DNA of 38,520 bases from Natrinema thermotolerans DSM 11552 (GTDB lineage: Archaea > Halobacteriota > Halobacteria > Halobacteriales > Natrialbaceae), in assembly GCA_000337115.1 (NCBI GenBank), contig AOIR01000053.1, forward strand, positions 179,650-218,169. The letters run 5' to 3'. A program made the position numbers and the translations under genes. How positions within the stretch are numbered: the stretch's first letter is position 1; each line of letters starts with the position of its first letter. This document shows, piece by piece, positions 26,870 through 36,503 of this stretch. Under the pieces are notes generated by a model. The model was not told the DNA's origin, did not search any database, and worked only from the letters and a program-made list of their open reading frames with translations.

Positions 26870-27442
26870 TTACGCGAACGCGATCTCCGCGCTCGGTTCG
26901 ACCTCGCCGAACAGCCACGCGGCGTGATCGAGGGCGTACTCATGGTGGTCGTCCTCGATCGCGCCGATGCAGTCCTCGAGCATGATCGGCCGGAAATCCC
27001 GTAGCCCCGCACTACCGCCGGTGTGGAGAACACAGACGTTCGCGAGGGTCCCACAGATCACCAGGTCGTCGATCCCGCGGGCGTTCAGCCACCCCTCGAG
27101 TTCGGTGTTGTAAAAGGCGTCGTAGGTGTGTTTCTCGATCACGTGGTCCCCGTCTTCGACGGGCAGCTCGTCGACGATCTCGGCCTCCCACGAGCCCTCG
27201 AGGACGTGTTCGCCCCACTGCTCGAACTCGTCGTAGTAGTGGGCGTCGTCGAACTGTTCCGGTGGGTGGACGTCGCGTGTGAAGATCACCTGCGTCCCGG
27301 CCTCGCGAGCGCGCTCGAGCAAGTCGGCGATCGGCTCGATGACGGCCTCGCTGCCCGGCGCGTACAGCGAGCCGTCCGGATGACAGAATCCGTTTTGCAT
27401 GTCGACCACCACCACCGCCGTGCGATCCGGATCGAGTTGCAT
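26870..27442 (-). CDS. Isochorismatase-family cysteine hydrolase, probable nicotinamidase
   Basis: A 190-aa protein with the family catalytic triad D14 (VVVVDMQNGF), K104 (VIEKHTYDAF) and C137 (GTLANVCVL). It also keeps the metal site typical of nicotinamidases: D57-x-H59 (TRDVHPPEQ) and a second His, H79, in WGEHVLEGSWEAEIV, matching the WPxHC/GAE region of PncA. Spacing of all six positions resembles archaeal nicotinamidases. I therefore infer that it deamidates nicotinamide to nicotinate, feeding the nicotinate phosphoribosyltransferase at 35.3 kb. Another amidase activity is possible because the superfamily is broad. ATG 27442 has a TTTT box at 27466-27474. Confidence 0.78.
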   Translation of the reverse strand: MQLDPDRTAVVVVDMQNGFCHPDGSLYAPGSEAVIEPIADLLERAREAGTQVIFTRDVHPPEQFDDAHYYDEFEQWGEHVLEGSWEAEIVDELPVEDGDHVIEKHTYDAFYNTELEGWLNARGIDDLVICGTLANVCVLHTGGSAGLRDFRPIMLEDCIGAIEDDHHEYALDHAAWLFGEVEPSAEIAFA

Positions 27443-27465
27443 GGTTGACGGTACGAACGGGATCG

Positions 27466-27474
27466 TCAAAACGT
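27466..27474 (-). promoter_or_regulatory. TATA-like box for the nicotinamidase-like gene
   Basis: On the minus strand CGTTTTGAC lies 24-32 nt before ATG 27442. Confidence 0.45.
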
Positions 27475-27612
27475 TCGCGCCGGCCTCGAGGCGGTTCGCG
27501 TATCGCCCGCAACTCGCGGCTCACCGCCCGACCGCCTTTCATGCGACTGCCGAATACGGAACCCGCTGGGACGAGAACATCGCTCCGTTCCGCGAACCCC
27601 TTCGATCCGATC

Positions 27613-29496
27613 ATGAAGTACGAACGCCTCGAGGAGTACGGCGCGATCGGCGACGGAAACACGGTCGCCCTCGTCGGCCGCGACGGCTCGATCGACTGGT
27701 GTCCGTTGCCCCACGTCGAGTCGCCGAGCGTCTTCGCCACCGTCCTCGACGCCGACCGCGGCGGTCACTTCGCCGTTCGACCGACGGGATCGTTCGAGTC
27801 GGTCCAGCAGTATCGCGACCGGACCAACGTCCTCGAGACGACGTTCCGGACCGCCGGCGGCGCAGCGACGGTGACCGATTTCGTGCCCGTCACCGACGCC
27901 GACGACCGGCCGCCCGCCGTCTACCGGAAACTGGACTGCGAGGACGGCCCGCTCGAGGTCGCGATCGAGTTCGACCCCCGATTCGACTACGCGCGGGACG
28001 TGCCCGAGATCGAGTCGACGGCCGACGGCGTCGTCGCGACCGGCGACGACGAGCGGGCCGCCCTCGCGAGCGACCTCCCGCTCGAGCCCGCGAGCGACGG
28101 CCCCGGAGCGACCGCGACCGCGACGCTCGCGGGCGGCGAGACGCGCTGGCTCGCGCTCGGGTACGGCGAGGGAATCGCCTTCGAACCGTCGCGGTATCGG
28201 GAGGCACTCGCTGGAACGATCGACTACTGGCGCGACTGGGTCCACGACTGCGACGGCGGGGAGCGTCCCGTCGGCGACCGGTGGCACGACCTCGCGGTCC
28301 GCTCGTCGCTCGTCCTCAAACTCCTGATTCACCGCGAGACGGGCGCTGTGTGTGCGGCCCCGACGACCTCGCTGCCCGAGGACGTCGGCGGCGTCCGCAA
28401 CTGGGACTACCGATACAACTGGATCCGCGACGCGGCCTTCACCGTCCGGGCGCTGGCCGAACTGGACCACCTCGAGGAGGCGCGGTCGTACTTCCGGCTG
28501 TGTCTCGACCACTGTCGGCACCACGACCCGGCCGACGTGCCGCCGGTCTACGACCTCCACGGCGGGGCCGACCTCGAGGAGCGCGTCCTCGATCACCTCG
28601 AGGGCTACCGCCGTTCGGCCCCCGTTCGCGTCGGCAACGCGGCCCGGAAGCAACACCAGCTCGACGTCTACGGCGAGTTGATCCTCGCGATCTACGAGAG
28701 CGTCCGCTACGGCGAGCCGATCCGGGCCGACGACTGGGCGGTGGTCCGTGACTTCGTCGAGTACGTCTGCGACGGCTGGGACGACCCCGACGCCGGGATC
28801 TGGGAGGTACGGAGCGACCCCGAGCAGTTCGTCTACTCGAAGGTGATGTGCTGGACGGCGCTCGATCGCGGGATCGAACTCGCCGCGGCCGCCGACGGCG
28901 TCGACGCGCCCCTCGAGCGCTGGCGGGCCCGTCGCGAGGACGTTCGGGCGGCGATCCTCGAGCGGGGGTTCAGCGAGGGAACGAACAGCTTCGTGCGCGC
29001 TTTCGACGACGAGGACACGCTCGACGCGGCGAACCTGCTCGTTCCGGTCGTCGGGTTCCTCCCGCCCGACGACGACCGCGTCCGGGGGACGATCGACGCG
29101 ACGCTGGACCGGCTGGCGACCGACGACGGACTCGTCCGGCGCTACGAGGGCGACGACGGCCTGCCGGGGGTCGACAGCCCGTTCGTCGTGTGTTCGTTCT
29201 GGCTCGTCACTGCGCTCGCGCTCGCCGGGCGGACCGACGAGGCTCGCGACCGCTTCGAGTCGGTCCTCGAGTACGCCAGTCCGCTCGGCCTGCTGTCCGA
29301 AGCGATCGACGAGGAGACCGGCGAACAACGGGGCAACTATCCGCAGGCCTACAGCCACATCGGGCTGCTCAACGGCGCGCTGTACCTGGCGGACGCGACC
29401 GGCTCGGGCGACGCGTCGCCGGCACCGCTCGGGAGCGAGGCTGACGGCCTCGATTCGGAGACGGAGATCATCCGGCGATCGAACGACGACGAGTGA
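27613..29496 (+). CDS. Glycoside hydrolase family 15 protein (glucoamylase/trehalase)
   Basis: A 627-aa GH15 enzyme with an N-terminal super-sandwich domain (about 1-230) and an (alpha/alpha)6 barrel. The start MKYERLEEYGAIGDGNTVALVGRDGSIDW is the typical family opening. Barrel motifs include NWDYRYNWIRDAAFTVRAL (263-281). Likely acid and base are E398 (AGIWEVR) and E563 (GLLSEAIDEETGE), followed by GNYPQAYSHIGL. It hydrolyses terminal alpha-glucosidic bonds; trehalase and glucoamylase cannot be separated by eye. There is no signal peptide, so it acts in the cytoplasm. An in-frame ATG at 27541 is a less likely start. It ends 5 nt before the VKOR gene. Confidence 0.93.
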   Translation: MKYERLEEYGAIGDGNTVALVGRDGSIDWCPLPHVESPSVFATVLDADRGGHFAVRPTGSFESVQQYRDRTNVLETTFRTAGGAATVTDFVPVTDADDRPPAVYRKLDCEDGPLEVAIEFDPRFDYARDVPEIESTADGVVATGDDERAALASDLPLEPASDGPGATATATLAGGETRWLALGYGEGIAFEPSRYREALAGTIDYWRDWVHDCDGGERPVGDRWHDLAVRSSLVLKLLIHRETGAVCAAPTTSLPEDVGGVRNWDYRYNWIRDAAFTVRALAELDHLEEARSYFRLCLDHCRHHDPADVPPVYDLHGGADLEERVLDHLEGYRRSAPVRVGNAARKQHQLDVYGELILAIYESVRYGEPIRADDWAVVRDFVEYVCDGWDDPDAGIWEVRSDPEQFVYSKVMCWTALDRGIELAAAADGVDAPLERWRARREDVRAAILERGFSEGTNSFVRAFDDEDTLDAANLLVPVVGFLPPDDDRVRGTIDATLDRLATDDGLVRRYEGDDGLPGVDSPFVVCSFWLVTALALAGRTDEARDRFESVLEYASPLGLLSEAIDEETGEQRGNYPQAYSHIGLLNGALYLADATGSGDASPAPLGSEADGLDSETEIIRRSNDDE

Positions 29497-29501
29497 GACC
29501 A

Positions 29502-31004
29502 ATGAGCGACGACAACACCAACGACTCGAGCGAGGAATCGACTGCGGTGACGACAGACGCGCGAGAGCGCCGTTCGCGACCCGACGACGGCGACGGAAGC
29601 GGAGCGGACGGCTCGAACGGGAGCGGCGCAAACGACGGTGGCGACGGCGGCGACTCGATGCGGCCGGGCGAGATGATGCTCAAACATCCAGTAAAGGAGA
29701 CCTGGGTCCAGTACGCCGTCATCTCGCTCGGTATCTGGCTCGTCGCGAGTACACCGGCCCTGAACTACGGGAGCGCGTTGATGGTCTGGAACGGCGTCGT
29801 CAGCGGGCTCCTCCTGATCGCACTGGCCGGGCTCACGATCTACCGCGAGAGCGGCTACGCCAACTACGCCAACGGCTTCGTCGGTCTCTGGCTCGTGTTC
29901 GCGCCGATCGCGTTCTGGGCCCCGACGGCCGCGGCGTACGCAAACAACGCGCTCGTCGGGACCATGGTGATCACGTTCTCGGTGCTGATCGTGATGCGCT
30001 CCGAGATGGACGGCCCGACGATCCCGCCGGGCTGGTCGTACAACCCCTCGACGGGGGCCCAACGCGCGCCGCTGATCGCGCTCGGCATCTTCGGCTTCTT
30101 CGCCTCGTGGTACATGGCTGCCTTCCAACTGGGCTACATCGAGCGCGTCTGGGACCCGCTGTACGATCCGGGAACCGCGGCGATACTGACCTCGAGCGTC
30201 TCGGAGGCGTTCCCGGTCTCCGATGCAGGTCTCGGCGCGGTGGCCTACTCCGTCGAGGCCCTGATGGGCTTCATGGGTGACCGTCGGCGGTGGCGGACGA
30301 TGCCGTGGATGGTCGCCTTCTTCGGTGTCGTCGTCATCCCGCTGGGCTTCGTCCAGGTGCTGCTTGTCATCAGTCAGCCGATCATGGTCGGGACGTGGTG
30401 TACGCTCTGTCTGCTCTCGGCTTTCGGCATGCTCTGGATGATCGCGCTGACCGTGGACGAGGTCGTCGCGATGGGGCAGTTCCTCGTCCGGCTGATGCGA
30501 CAGGGCGACAGCCTCTGGACCGCGTTCTGGATGGGTGGAACGTTCCCCGAAGACGAGGCCGGCGTAAGCGAGAACGCGATGAGAGAGATCGACGACCGTC
30601 CCGCCAGCGAGCCGTTCTGGGGCGTCTCGACCCCGTGGACGCTGCTGGGAGCGATGGCGCTCGGCGCGTGGCTCATGCTCTCGCCGACCGTCTTCGGAAC
30701 GACCGGACTCATGGCCGACAGCAGCCACCTCGCCGGCTCGCTGATCGTTTCCTTCACCGTGATCGCGACCGCCGAGCCCGCTCGCGCGGTCCGATTCCTG
30801 AACGTGCCGCTGGCCGCGTGGGTCGCCGTCGCCCCGTGGCTGCTCGACGGCGTCCCGACGCTCGCCGCGATCAACGCCGGCGTCGCCGGGGCGCTCGTGG
30901 TGCTGCTCAGCGTCCCGCGGGGCTCGTTCGAGGACCGCTACGGCGGCTGGGAGGAGTATGCAACCCTCCGGACGTTCGATCGGCTCAACCCACTCAGTAG
31001 CTAA
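29502..31004 (+). CDS. VKOR-like/SPW-repeat membrane protein
   Basis: A 500-aa polytopic membrane protein. Residues 1-55 are an acidic, Gly/Ser-rich disordered lead. An SPW-type repeat follows (about 65-165, ISLGIWLVASTPALNYGSALMVWN) and recurs near the end (TPWTLLGAMALGAWLMLSP). Between them is a vitamin K epoxide reductase-like core (about 185-320) with VWDPLYDPGT, FPVSDAGLGAVAYSVEALMGFMGD and the redox motif C300-T-L-C303. VKOR proteins couple quinone reduction to disulfide formation. No other Cys is present, so the periplasmic loop pair used to relay electrons is missing. Only 5 nt separate it from the GH15 gene and 2 nt from the SDR gene. Confidence 0.87.
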   Translation: MSDDNTNDSSEESTAVTTDARERRSRPDDGDGSGADGSNGSGANDGGDGGDSMRPGEMMLKHPVKETWVQYAVISLGIWLVASTPALNYGSALMVWNGVVSGLLLIALAGLTIYRESGYANYANGFVGLWLVFAPIAFWAPTAAAYANNALVGTMVITFSVLIVMRSEMDGPTIPPGWSYNPSTGAQRAPLIALGIFGFFASWYMAAFQLGYIERVWDPLYDPGTAAILTSSVSEAFPVSDAGLGAVAYSVEALMGFMGDRRRWRTMPWMVAFFGVVVIPLGFVQVLLVISQPIMVGTWCTLCLLSAFGMLWMIALTVDEVVAMGQFLVRLMRQGDSLWTAFWMGGTFPEDEAGVSENAMREIDDRPASEPFWGVSTPWTLLGAMALGAWLMLSPTVFGTTGLMADSSHLAGSLIVSFTVIATAEPARAVRFLNVPLAAWVAVAPWLLDGVPTLAAINAGVAGALVVLLSVPRGSFEDRYGGWEEYATLRTFDRLNPLSS

Positions 31005-31006
31005 CG

Positions 31007-32029
31007 ATGGCAGGATCCACTGACTCCGAAGTCGTCGTCGTCACGGGTGCATCGGCCGGCGTCGGGCGAGCCACCGCTCGCGCGTTCGCCGAACGGAACG
31101 CGAAGGTCGGTCTCCTCGCACGCGGCGAGGACGGTCTCGAGGGCGCGCGCGAAGACATCGAGAACGCGGGCGGCGAGGCGGTCGTCGTCCCGACCGACGT
31201 CTCGAACTACGACGAGGTCGAGGCGGCGGCCGAGACGGTCGAAGACGCGTTCGGCCCGATCGACGTCTGGGTGAACAACGCGATGGTGTCGGTGTTCTCG
31301 CCGGCCGCGAAGATGACCGCCGACGACTACCGCCGCGTCACCGCGGTCACCTACCTCGGCTACGTCTACGGCACGCAGGTCGCCCTCGAGCGGATGCGCC
31401 CCCGCGACGAGGGGACGATCGTCCAGGTCGGCTCGGCGCTGGCGTATCGCGGCATTCCGCTCCAGTCGGCCTACTGCGGCGCGAAACACGCGATCCAGGG
31501 CTTCACCGAGTCCGTCCGGACCGAACTCATCCACGACGACTGTGACGTGCAGTTGTCGATGGTGCAGATGCCCGCGATGAACACCCCGCAGTTCGAGTGG
31601 TCGAAGAGCCGGATGCCGAAACAGCCCCAGCCGGTGCCGCCGATCTATCAGCCCGAGGTCGCGGCTCGAGCGATCACGTGGACCGTCGACAGCGGCGAGG
31701 ACGAACTGTGGGTCGGGCGGTCGACGGTGAAAGCAATTCTCGGGAACCGTCTGATCCCGCGACGGCTCGACAACTACCTCGCCAGCGGCGGCTACGACTC
31801 CCAGCTGACCGACGAGCCGACCGATCCCGACCGGGAACACAACCTCCACGAGCCGGTGGCGGGCGATTTCGGTGCGCACGGTCCGTTCGCCGACCGAGCG
31901 CGCGACCGGAGTTACCAGCTCCAGGCGTCGATGCATCGGCGGGCGCTCGCCCTGCTCGTCGGGCTGGCGGTCGCGATCGCGAGCGCGGTCGTCGGCCGCC
32001 GACTCGTCTCGCGCGATACCGACTGGTGA
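31007..32029 (+). CDS. SDR family oxidoreductase with C-terminal membrane anchor
   Basis: A 340-aa short-chain dehydrogenase/reductase. The cofactor loop is TGASAGVGRATA (13-24), the NNA strand is VNNAMVS, and the catalytic Tyr/Lys pair is Y156-x3-K160 in AYCGAKHAIQGF. The region after 190 (SMVQMPAMNTPQFEWSKSRMP) fits SDRs of the type often fused to membrane tails, and residues 310-332 (ALALLVGLAVAIASAVVGRRL) form one membrane helix. It is thus a tethered NAD(P)-dependent reductase. Substrate unknown; quinone or lipid-derived ketones are conceivable given the VKOR neighbour. Two bases separate it from the VKOR stop. Confidence 0.9.
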   Translation: MAGSTDSEVVVVTGASAGVGRATARAFAERNAKVGLLARGEDGLEGAREDIENAGGEAVVVPTDVSNYDEVEAAAETVEDAFGPIDVWVNNAMVSVFSPAAKMTADDYRRVTAVTYLGYVYGTQVALERMRPRDEGTIVQVGSALAYRGIPLQSAYCGAKHAIQGFTESVRTELIHDDCDVQLSMVQMPAMNTPQFEWSKSRMPKQPQPVPPIYQPEVAARAITWTVDSGEDELWVGRSTVKAILGNRLIPRRLDNYLASGGYDSQLTDEPTDPDREHNLHEPVAGDFGAHGPFADRARDRSYQLQASMHRRALALLVGLAVAIASAVVGRRLVSRDTDW

Positions 32030-32106: not shown

Positions 32107-33774
32107 ATGAGATCGACCTCCGCCCGTTCGTCCGTCGCCCTCCTCGCAGTCGTCCTCGCCGCAGTGTTGGTAACCGGCGGGGTCGCTGGACCGGTCGTAG
32201 CGACGACCCCGACTGCCGACTCGAGTAGCGCGATCGATGCTTCGCCCGCCACCGAGTCGATCGCTGCCTCGAGCGCAGTGACGGAACCGCAGGCAGACCG
32301 CCCCGCCGATCCCTCGACCGAGGACACCGTCGGCTACGTCGAGGGCTACTGGTACGACGACGAACTACCGGTCGACGACCGCAGTGACGCCGTCGTCGAC
32401 GAGTCCGAACTCGACGCCGTCGTCTACCGGTCGATGGCCCGCGTCGAGCGGATCCGGAACCTGACCTTCGAAGACGGCGTCGACGTCGATGTCGTCACCC
32501 GCTCGGAGTATCAGGAAACCAACGACGACCGGTTTACCAATGTCACCGACGCCGACCGTCTCGAGGGCAACGTCGGGTACGAGGCGCTGTTTATGGTCGA
32601 CCGAGACACCGACGCGATGAACTCGACGAAGTCGGTCTACGGCGGTTCCGTCGCCGGCTACTACGACCCCGAAACCGACGAGATCGTCATCGTCTCGAAC
32701 AACCCTGAAACGCCGGAGTTAGACGAACTCACGCTCGGTCACGAACTCGTCCACGCCTTGCAGGACCAGCGGTTCGACCTCGAGTCGCTCGAGGGGACGA
32801 CCCAAGACAGCGATACCGGGATCAGCGGCCTCGTCGAGGGCGACGCCAGCCATGTCGAAAACGAGTACGAGCGTCGGTGTCGTACCGACTGGGACTGTCT
32901 CACGCCCAACGGTAGTGGTGGGCAGGGCGGCGTCGGCGACGTCAACTGGGGGATCTACTTCAGCATCTACCAGCCCTACAGCGACGGCCCCAACTACGTC
33001 GACCACCTGCGCGAGCAGGGGCCGGGCTGGTCCGCGGTCAACGCCGCCTACGACGACCCGCCGACGACCACCTCGGCGGTGATTCATCCCGGTTCCGACC
33101 GCGAACCGGCGACCGTCTCGGTGCCGGACCGCTCGAGCGAGGACTGGCGACAGCTCAGGATCGACGGCGAGGTAGCCAACGACACCGTCGGCGAGGCGGG
33201 GATGGTTGCGATGTTCGCTGCCGACACGGTCGATCGGAACCGCGAGTCGGTGATCAGCGCCGACGACTTCTTCCGGGGCGGCACCGGGGAGTACGACTAC
33301 GACCAGCCGGCCACCGACGGCTGGGCCGGCGACGAACTGGTCGTCTACACGAACGACGACGCCGACGCCGCGAGCGGCCCCGGTGCGGCCGGCGACGCCG
33401 GCTACGTCTGGCGGACACAGTGGGACACGGTAGACGACACCGAGCAGTTCGTCGACGCCTACAGTCAGTTGCTCGCGACCCACGGTGCGGAATCGGTCGA
33501 GGACCGACAGGACACCGCCGTCATCGAGGACGGCGGCTACGCCGGCGCGTACTACCTCGAGCGCGACGGCCGAACGGTGACGATCGTCCGCGCGCCGTCG
33601 GTCGCGGAACTGCCGAACGTCGAGGCCGGTGCCGCGCCGGCAGGCGAGAACGAACTCCTGGCCCTCGAGGAGGGAGCCGAGACCGTTCCCGGCTTCGGCG
33701 TCGGGGTCGCGGCGATCGCGCTCGCACTGGCGGCGGTCGTCGCCCGCGTCGCCGGCGGCCATGGACGGAACTGA
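32107..33774 (+). CDS. Hvo_1808-family surface protein, PGF-CTERM anchored, putative metalloprotease
   Basis: A 555-aa exported protein with an N-terminal signal (residues 1-33) and a Ser/Thr/Ala-rich linker, then the Hvo_1808 domain. Zinc-protease hallmarks are H212-E213-L-V-H216 (TLGHELVHALQDQ) and E244 in LVEGDAS as the probable third ligand. A Cys pair C258-x5-C264 follows. The C-terminus has PGF (P528) followed by a hydrophobic helix and basic tail, the archaeosortase A recognition signal, so the mature protein should be lipid-anchored on the S-layer side. Substrate unknown. A lipoprotein paralogue follows 69 nt downstream. Family good; proteolysis inferred from motifs only. Confidence 0.87.
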   Translation: MRSTSARSSVALLAVVLAAVLVTGGVAGPVVATTPTADSSSAIDASPATESIAASSAVTEPQADRPADPSTEDTVGYVEGYWYDDELPVDDRSDAVVDESELDAVVYRSMARVERIRNLTFEDGVDVDVVTRSEYQETNDDRFTNVTDADRLEGNVGYEALFMVDRDTDAMNSTKSVYGGSVAGYYDPETDEIVIVSNNPETPELDELTLGHELVHALQDQRFDLESLEGTTQDSDTGISGLVEGDASHVENEYERRCRTDWDCLTPNGSGGQGGVGDVNWGIYFSIYQPYSDGPNYVDHLREQGPGWSAVNAAYDDPPTTTSAVIHPGSDREPATVSVPDRSSEDWRQLRIDGEVANDTVGEAGMVAMFAADTVDRNRESVISADDFFRGGTGEYDYDQPATDGWAGDELVVYTNDDADAASGPGAAGDAGYVWRTQWDTVDDTEQFVDAYSQLLATHGAESVEDRQDTAVIEDGGYAGAYYLERDGRTVTIVRAPSVAELPNVEAGAAPAGENELLALEEGAETVPGFGVGVAAIALALAAVVARVAGGHGRN

Positions 33775-33812
33775 CCCTCGGGCGGATCCCGGTACGGCCC
33801 CCCGACCGATGA

Positions 33813-33820
33813 CTCTTTGA
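33813..33820 (+). promoter_or_regulatory. TATA-like box for the lipoprotein paralogue
   Basis: CTCTTTGA lies 24-31 nt before ATG 33844, so the second paralogue may be transcribed separately from the first. Confidence 0.4.
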
Positions 33821-33843
33821 TCGCGTCGCCGAATACCCACCCA

Positions 33844-35301
33844 ATGTCTCGAGTACGGCTGTTCGCCGTCCTCGCGCTCGTCGTCCTCTCGGGCTGTGCC
33901 GTGCCCGGCACCTCCGACGGGTTCGACACCGATCGCGACCTCGGCTACGTCGACGACTACGCCCACGACGACGTCTTTTCGTTCGACACGAGCGACGGCC
34001 TCACCGAATCCCAACTCGAGGCCGTCAAATACCGCTCGATGGCGCGGATCGAGGTCGTTCGCGGGCTCAAGTACGAGCGCGACGTCGACCTCGAGATCGT
34101 TACGCGCGAGGAGTACCGCGCCCAGCGAGGGGCGACCCGCGGGAACGGCTCGGCGTTCCGAAACGAGGTCTGGCGCGGTGCCTTCCTCGTCGACGGCGAG
34201 ACGGATGTCGACCGGGCGTTCGATGACCTCTATGCCGATTCGATCCAGGGCTACTACGTGAACGATCGGATCGTCATCATCGCCGACGACGCCGACGAGA
34301 TCCGGATCGACCGGCGGACGCTGGTCCACGAACTGACCCACGCCCTGCAGGACCAGCACTTCGGCATCGGCCGCGAGAGCGAGACGATCGACGGCCTACG
34401 TGCCGAGAACGGGCTGCTCGAGGGCGAGGCGGGCTACGTCCCCGCTCGGTACGATCGCCGTTGTGGCGCGGCGTGGCAGTGTCTGTCGGACCCACAGCCG
34501 CCGGCAGCCAGCGGCGAGGCGCTCACCCGGCGACCGTTCAACGCCGGGCTCTTCCTCTCGATCTACGCCCCCTACGCCGCGGGACCGCCGTTCGTCGCCG
34601 ATCTCCACGACCGTGGCGGGTGGGCGGCCGTCGATCGCGCTCACGACGATCCGCCCCGGAGTACCGCACAGTTGCTCCACTCCGAGCGGTATCCCGACAC
34701 CGAGCCGGTTTCCGTCGAACTGACGGATCGCTCGAGCGACGGCTGGGACCCCGTCTCGGACGACGGCGAGCCGCGGACGGAGACGGTCGGCGAGGCGACG
34801 CTGTTCGCGACGCTGTGGGCAAACGGCGTCGTCGACCGGCCGCTCACCCGCGGAGCCGGCGAGCGATCGCCGTACAACTACAGCCATCCGGCGACCGCGG
34901 GCTGGGCCGGCGACGGGTTGCAGGTTTATCAGGCGACCGACGACACCGACCGGACGGGCCACGTCTGGCGGCTCGCGTGGGACAGTTCGGCCGACGCACG
35001 CGAGTTCGCCGACGCCTACCGCGGACTCCTCGAGAACCGCGGGGCCGAACGAGTCCGGACGGCCGGCGACGGCGTCTACCGCATTCCCGACGACGAGTCG
35101 TTCGACGGCGCGTATCGTGTCTCCGTCACCGACGACCGTGTCGAGATCGTCGGCGCGCCGACCGTCGACGCACTCACGGCGATCCGTCCCAGGGAAACGG
35201 ACACGCGGCCAACGCCGTCGCTCGAGGCGGCGGACCGACCGTTGTCGGCCGGATCGCCGGCCACGACACCGGGGACGCCGGAGCCCGCCGCGGCGCCGTA
35301 G
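33844..35301 (+). CDS. Hvo_1808-family lipoprotein, putative metalloprotease
   Basis: A 485-aa paralogue of the preceding protein. It has a lipoprotein signal: hydrophobic residues 5-15 then L15-S16-G17-C18, with Cys18 expected to be lipid-modified. The catalytic motif is H162-E163-L-T-H166 (LVHELTHALQDQHFG), the third-ligand region is E193 in LLEGEAGYV, and the Cys pair C207-x5-C213 is kept. Both proteins share a LGYVDDY-like opening, YRSMAR-E, a DDPP-like turn and the GWAGDGLQVY block. It lacks PGF-CTERM and ends in a Pro/Thr-rich tail, so anchoring is at the N-terminus. A duplicated surface-enzyme pair with opposite anchors. Confidence 0.87.
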   Translation: MSRVRLFAVLALVVLSGCAVPGTSDGFDTDRDLGYVDDYAHDDVFSFDTSDGLTESQLEAVKYRSMARIEVVRGLKYERDVDLEIVTREEYRAQRGATRGNGSAFRNEVWRGAFLVDGETDVDRAFDDLYADSIQGYYVNDRIVIIADDADEIRIDRRTLVHELTHALQDQHFGIGRESETIDGLRAENGLLEGEAGYVPARYDRRCGAAWQCLSDPQPPAASGEALTRRPFNAGLFLSIYAPYAAGPPFVADLHDRGGWAAVDRAHDDPPRSTAQLLHSERYPDTEPVSVELTDRSSDGWDPVSDDGEPRTETVGEATLFATLWANGVVDRPLTRGAGERSPYNYSHPATAGWAGDGLQVYQATDDTDRTGHVWRLAWDSSADAREFADAYRGLLENRGAERVRTAGDGVYRIPDDESFDGAYRVSVTDDRVEIVGAPTVDALTAIRPRETDTRPTPSLEAADRPLSAGSPATTPGTPEPAAAP

Positions 35302-35339: not shown

Positions 35340-36503
35340 ATGTCAAACCCGTTCGGCACCGTTCCCCCGGACGCGATTCTTGCGGGGGAAGCCACCGACG
35401 CCTACTTCGAGCGGACCCGGGCGACGCTCGAACACGCGGACAAGAACCCACACGTCGTCGCCGAAGTCACCGCCGACCAGTTCCCGACCGGCGATTTCGA
35501 CGTTTTCACCGGCGTGAAAGACGTCGCGACGCTGTTCGAGGGCCGCGACGTCGACATCGACGCGCTCCCCGACGGCCAACTGTTCGACGGCGGCCCCGTC
35601 TGCCGGATCGAGGGTCCCTACCTCGAGTTCGCCGCACTCGAGACCGCGCTGCTTGGCTTTCTCTCGCAACCGAGCGGGTTCGCGACGGCCGCGCTCGAGG
35701 CGCGGGTGGCCGCGCCTGACTCGCTGGTGCTTTCCTTCGGTGCGCGCCACGTCCACCCCTCGATCGCGTCGACGGTCGAGCGGGCCGCGCTACTGGCCGG
35801 ACTGGACGGCTTCTCCCACGTCGCGGCCGGCGAGATCCTGGGAAGGGAGGCCGGCGGCACGATGCCCCACGCGCTCATGTTTTGCTTCGGCGAGGGCAAC
35901 CAGGCCGACGCCTGGACGGCCTTCGACGAGGCCGTCGGCGAGGACGTGCCCCGCATCGCGCTGGTCGACACCTTCTGGGACGAGAAAAGCGAGAGCCTGC
36001 TGGCCGCCGAGACGCTCGGCGACGACTTGGACGGCGTCCGGATCGACACCACGGGATCCCGCCGGGGCGACTTCCGCCACATCATCCGCGAGGTCCGCTG
36101 GGAACTCGACGCCCGCGGCCACGAGGACGTCGACGTCTTCTGTAGCGGCGGGCTCGTGCCCGAGACGATTCGCAACCTGCGCGACGTCGCCGACGGCTTC
36201 GGCGTCGGTAGCCACATCACGGGTGCCGACTCGGTCGACTTCAGCCTCGACATCGTCGAGATCGAGGGCGAGCCGATCTCCAAGCGCGGCAAGCTGTCGG
36301 GGGTCAAAGACGTTTACCGAACCCCCGACGGCGGCCACCACGTCGCGCTGGCCGATCGCGAGGCACCCGACGACGGCGAGTCGCTGTTCGAGCCGCTGGT
36401 CCGGGACGGCGAGGTCGTCCGGGAGTTCGACCTCGAGGCGGCGACCGATCGCTGTCTGACCGACGCCGCTGCCGTCGACTTCGGCTCGACACTCGAGGAG
36501 TAG
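35340..36503 (+). CDS. pncB: Nicotinate phosphoribosyltransferase
   Basis: A 387-aa archaeal-type NAPRTase that combines nicotinate with PRPP to give nicotinate mononucleotide, the Preiss-Handler salvage step. Family blocks are SFGARHVHPS (with the catalytic-loop His region), a MPHALMFCFGEG stretch, the VDTFWDEKSESL strand, RIDTTGSRRGDF, and the phosphate-binding GGLVPETI and FGVGSHITGADSVDFSLDIV. All sit in normal order, and length matches short archaeal enzymes. ATG 35340 is supported by family start and T-box. The product is the same NaMN that NadC makes at 22 kb; a nicotinamidase-like gene at 26.9 kb would supply nicotinate. Confidence 0.93.
   Translation: MSNPFGTVPPDAILAGEATDAYFERTRATLEHADKNPHVVAEVTADQFPTGDFDVFTGVKDVATLFEGRDVDIDALPDGQLFDGGPVCRIEGPYLEFAALETALLGFLSQPSGFATAALEARVAAPDSLVLSFGARHVHPSIASTVERAALLAGLDGFSHVAAGEILGREAGGTMPHALMFCFGEGNQADAWTAFDEAVGEDVPRIALVDTFWDEKSESLLAAETLGDDLDGVRIDTTGSRRGDFRHIIREVRWELDARGHEDVDVFCSGGLVPETIRNLRDVADGFGVGSHITGADSVDFSLDIVEIEGEPISKRGKLSGVKDVYRTPDGGHHVALADREAPDDGESLFEPLVRDGEVVREFDLEAATDRCLTDAAAVDFGSTLEE

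Follow-up and report, generated by a model that had tools for sequence, protein, structure and literature searches.

Two adjacent genes of the haloarchaeon Natrinema thermotolerans DSM 11552, located within an analysed stretch of 38,520 nucleotides (the window), probably encode exported, membrane-tethered, gluzincin-like metallopeptidases of the zincin superfamily, and we place the probability of this reading at roughly 0.72. The two products, P0001 and P0002, share 38% identity and are the only Hvo_1808-family members in the source genome. Both are full-length members of the family whose profile takes its name from HVO_1808 of Haloferax volcanii: they score 538.8 and 477 bits, respectively, against NF038145 (Hvo_1808_fam; curated cut-off 200), with profile positions 1–431 and 2–432 covered. 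The family carries no name beyond that of a surface protein, as the initial annotation had said. Family membership, conservation, the predicted fold, the alternative anchors and a conserved gene neighbourhood were established by computation, and a literature search found no metal or proteolysis assay of any Hvo_1808-family member. The pair has the following features, where P0002 is read from the ATG at 33844 and the open reading frame list places a longer TTG start at 33817.

32107–33774, plus strand: gene 1, P0001, upstream Hvo_1808-family protein, 555 aa
32740–32754, plus strand: HELVH of P0001, residues 212–216, predicted metal-binding and catalytic motif
32836–32838, plus strand: E244 of EGDA in P0001, predicted third metal ligand (from conservation)
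32878–32898, plus strand: C258-x5-C264 of P0001, conserved cysteine pair, probable disulfide
33688–33771, plus strand: PGFG, hydrophobic stretch and basic end of P0001, PGF-CTERM-like
33844–35301, plus strand: gene 2, P0002, downstream Hvo_1808-family protein of the lipobox type, 485 aa
33886–33897, plus strand: LSGC lipobox of P0002, residues 15–18 (motif match only)
34327–34341, plus strand: HELTH of P0002, residues 162–166
34420–34422, plus strand: E193 of EGEA in P0002, predicted third metal ligand (from conservation)

The HExxH motifs lie where the initial annotation had placed them. The EG[DE]A glutamate that follows, the C-x5-C pair that it described for both proteins and the lipobox of gene 2 were likewise recovered. 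P0001 consists of a signal peptide, a predicted gluzincin domain (residues ~69–333), a C-terminal domain (~334–509) and the PGF-CTERM-like anchor. In the proposed mechanism, the two histidines and the catalytic glutamate of HExxH would be joined by a glutamate of the next helix (E244 or E193, 27–28 residues past the second histidine), which presumably acts as a metal ligand, to form a gluzincin-type site. Zinc would be bound there, and the enzymes would cleave peptide bonds of exported or surface proteins just outside the membrane. The pair most likely arose by an old tandem duplication, after which the copies would have come to differ in the end that is anchored.

The strongest evidence for such a metallopeptidase site is the deep invariance of HExxHxxQ and EGxA. 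Family members are found in 390 of 391 Halobacteria genomes, and remoter relatives with about 20–25% identity occur in other Halobacteriota and on one Chloroflexota plasmid (a putative lipoprotein). Across the remote relatives only 11 columns are invariant, namely the H, E, H and Q of HExxHxxQ, the E, G and A of EGxA, and a single G, P, G and D. The shared HExxH/Glu motif is beyond chance, because it persists at this distance and because the H, E, H and E are kept in all 57 rows from the genus of the window (these rows overlap for some genomes). Purifying selection acts on both P0001 and P0002 (dN/dS 0.15–0.54) and is stronger on gene 2. The initial annotation would have been undone by family-wide loss of HExxH; instead, most members keep all four residues, and a large subset reads QExxH.

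Matches to Pfam were with zincin families alone, and for P0001, P0002 and 99 members all fell short of membership. The weak matches among the 99 members were to the metallopeptidase families DUF6782 (63/99), M78 (30/99) and M76 (22/99). PF10103 (DUF2342, Zincin_2) gave no match with P0001 or P0002 at E values up to 5 and was absent among the families listed for the 99 members. Some remote haloarchaeal paralogues (loci L216–L221) score below the NF038145 cut-off yet retain HExxH and the EG motif. A homologue on a Chlorohelix plasmid (L141:2521–3987), annotated as hypothetical, adjoins a gene for an MMPL-family transporter.

An AlphaFold2 model of P0001, built with 99 sequences, has a pLDDT of 85 (mostly >90 in the core) and a pTM of 0.82, and orders the region as a strand, the HExxH helix (207–223) and then a helix (233–260) that carries E244. 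Structural comparison returned zincins and gluzincins. Among solved structures, 3cmn resembles the model most (Foldseek probability 1.00, E 8.7e-3) and superimposes on residues 95–332 with a Z score of 11.2 and 4.8 Å over 201 residues. For this domain, the matches that follow come mostly from gluzincins of families M1, M4, M9, M2 and M32 at Z 6–8, a range where likeness may reflect common arrangement only. Taken together, these scores agree with a zincin fold but fall short of certainty. A model of the QExxH protein of Halobacterium salinarum leads to a similar result (3cmn, Z 12.0). Residues 334–509 of P0001 weakly resemble TiME, PknH and RseB/MucB domains (Z 6–8).

The HEMTH and EG motifs of 3cmn also align with those of the Hvo_1808 family (profile A5, E 0.33), which constitutes residue-level support and not proof, and a search of PDB sequences gave no significant match with P0001, the Chlorohelix protein or profile A2. 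A profile–profile comparison of A3 with A5 was discarded because P0001 and P0002 are present in both profiles, making the comparison circular. The alignments and the model, with its helices and fold matches, support the catalytic activity that had been suggested from the gluzincin-like motifs, and they make both a metal site and catalysis likely in P0001 and P0002.

HExxH gives way to QExxH (TL[SA]QELFH...EGDG) in the upstream-type copy of many other haloarchaea (for example, L090:3818-5332). A non-redundant set (<85% identity) of 212 rows contains 41 Q and 168–169 H sequences, and every sequence of both groups keeps E213, H216 and E244. Of 33 columns conserved to 97% or more among the H sequences, the Q sequences replace column 212 alone and keep 31 at 90% or more; the Q copies have therefore not decayed. 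The C-x5-C pair is at least 95% conserved in the H and Q sets alike. Changes that accompany Q are 215 to F, 247 from A to G, 234 from D to E and 236 to H, for which the Fisher values ignore relatedness. As judged from these alignments, part of the upstream-type copies elsewhere carries a remodelled QExxH site and not a decayed one. One relative (L112:4010-5452) reads EELNH, with Glu replacing the first His, and is the single such case.

A tree built without the motif columns and accompanied by 200 bootstrap trees requires 5–6 changes between the H and Q states, at least 3 of which are forced by well-supported branches. That the Q form arose only once was rejected, as 0 of the 200 bootstrap trees are compatible with it. 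L023, an HExxH protein, branches within a group of Q proteins (support 100/97) and is probably a return from Q to H, the alternatives being that the state was gained independently or was copied from a paralogue by gene conversion. Halobacterium salinarum has a single family member, a QExxH protein at the usual syntenic place, and the Q form therefore needs no HExxH partner. A partnership of active and inactive copies was rejected as the general reason for the Q form, given that the Q copy stands alone in some genomes.

As for anchoring, the initial annotation had given gene 1 a signal peptide and a C-terminal PGF-CTERM; the signal peptide and the PGF pattern stand, but the C terminus scores 17.9 bits against TIGR04126 (PGF_CTERM), below the cut-off of 24.5. 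We call the signal PGF-CTERM-like only, because the tripartite pattern is present and archaeosortase A (ArtA) is encoded in the source genome but the score falls short. Simple rules applied to fully readable haloarchaeal proteins, from overlapping loci and thus not independent counts, gave 131 with a lipobox alone, 96 with a C-terminal anchor alone, 21 with neither and none with both. Of the 227 proteins that bear a recognised anchor and can be read at both ends, 0 combine the two anchor types, which are thus alternatives within the family. A lipobox is, moreover, no proof of lipid anchoring by itself: HVO_1808, whose lipobox reads LAGC, is exported, processed and cell-associated, and its C19S mutant retained processing and anchoring although it was less stable (PMC2945643).

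Tandem pairs occur either as a C-terminally anchored protein with a lipobox protein, as in the window, or as two lipobox proteins. In favour of the idea that the pair, tethered from opposite ends, cuts a single substrate at two distances from the membrane is an observation in the genus of the window, where a C-terminally anchored upstream copy is typically paired with a downstream copy bearing an N-terminal lipobox. Two copies are present in 24 of 29 genomes of this genus and one copy in 5 of 29, and several congeners have the upstream copy alone. Pairs from other families consist of two lipoproteins (20 HExxH pairs for which both ends could be read, together with pairs that include the Q form); conservation thus does not extend to opposite anchoring, and no shared substrate is known. 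By these motif assignments, tethering at one end is conserved and anchoring at opposite ends is not a family rule. We regard the opposite-end explanation as very unlikely. Of the original interpretation, the gluzincin-like site and likely catalysis are upheld by conservation and the model, whereas opposite anchors as the key design give way to anchor types that alternate and to many pairs made of two lipoproteins.

Less improbable, although still unlikely, is that these are pseudoproteases or binding proteins, whose zincin scaffold would serve binding or structure while selection no longer maintains catalysis. The QExxH copies weigh against the protease reading, in that loss of one ligand is tolerated in a form that accounts for 41 of the 212 non-redundant sequences and can be the sole copy, as in Halobacterium salinarum; the annotation of the family as a 'surface protein' only points the same way. 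For the QExxH copies themselves, a pseudoprotease role is possible. Against this explanation for the family, most members retain all four residues, and even in the Q form H212 alone of the near-invariant columns is replaced while E213, H216 and E244 persist. A metal-dependent hydrolase that acts on something other than peptides, with a role tied to nicotinate or amide metabolism, is the least probable of these explanations and scarcely credible to us. It derives from two conserved neighbours of the pair.

26870–27442, minus strand: isochorismatase-family hydrolase, conserved divergent upstream neighbour
35340–36500, plus strand: nicotinate phosphoribosyltransferase, conserved downstream neighbour (NF006415, 523 bits)

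An isochorismatase-family gene on one side and a nicotinate phosphoribosyltransferase gene on the other flank 54 of 79 named loci, and at least one of them is present in 64 of 79. However, the structural relatives of the family are peptidases, its proteins are exported whereas these neighbours look cytosolic, and gene order may persist without a common function. Both neighbours are present in the window, where about 4.6 kb of extra genes separates the isochorismatase gene from the pair. This interval (27445–32029) holds GH15/trehalase-like, VKOR+SPW and SDR genes, which are absent from the corresponding place in Natrinema mahii (L062), where the isochorismatase gene adjoins the pair.

Reading a near-universal haloarchaeal 'surface protein' as a tethered zincin would give a component of the cell surface a testable activity. 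Of broader interest is the conserved QExxH form, a natural experiment in how far a zincin site may be altered and yet not decay. To our knowledge, descriptions of natural QExxH proteases are few. Literature retrieved for 'QEXXH' concerned Volvox and MMP8, plus one diiron halogenase that is unrelated.

HExxH sites with substitutions are frequent and in some cases conserved, and the paper that reports them (PMC3650047) gives their roles as unknown. According to a passage of PMC7717551 that cites Heitzer and Hallmann 2002, a Volvox metalloproteinase with QEXXH is functional and prefers copper, so that a working non-zinc QExxH site is possible. This protein, Volvox VMP3 (QEXXHXXGXXH), resembles the Q-form proteins in the natural replacement of the first His of HExxH by Gln; unlike theirs, its site is metzincin-like and includes a third His, and, being unrelated to the Hvo_1808 family, it offers a precedent for chemistry only. 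By this analogy, QExxH members might be working metalloproteases whose Q-E-x-x-H...E site is tuned to a non-zinc metal such as copper, a tentative suggestion that we consider rather doubtful. If it were true, HExxH and QExxH would represent two functional states between which a single family of surface proteases can switch.

For the preferred reading of P0001 and P0002 as gluzincin-like metallopeptidases, the closest comparison is 3cmn (Caur0242), a zincin that PMC3650047 places in SCOP d.92.1.16 and names as the DUF2342 template. This protein and DUF2342 combine the best fold match with HExxH and a downstream EG glutamate. 3cmn differs from the Hvo_1808 family in its low identity (16–18%) and in a longer stretch from HExxH to the glutamate; the Hvo_1808 proteins, for their part, are exported and anchored and have no significant match to the Pfam model. 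The gluzincins, including thermolysin (M4), aminopeptidase N (M1), collagenase (M9) and ACE (M2), share the succession of an HExxH helix and a helix with the third-ligand Glu and align with about residues 69–333 of the P0001 model, whereas they have no significant sequence similarity to the Hvo_1808 family, which possesses a C-terminal domain of its own.
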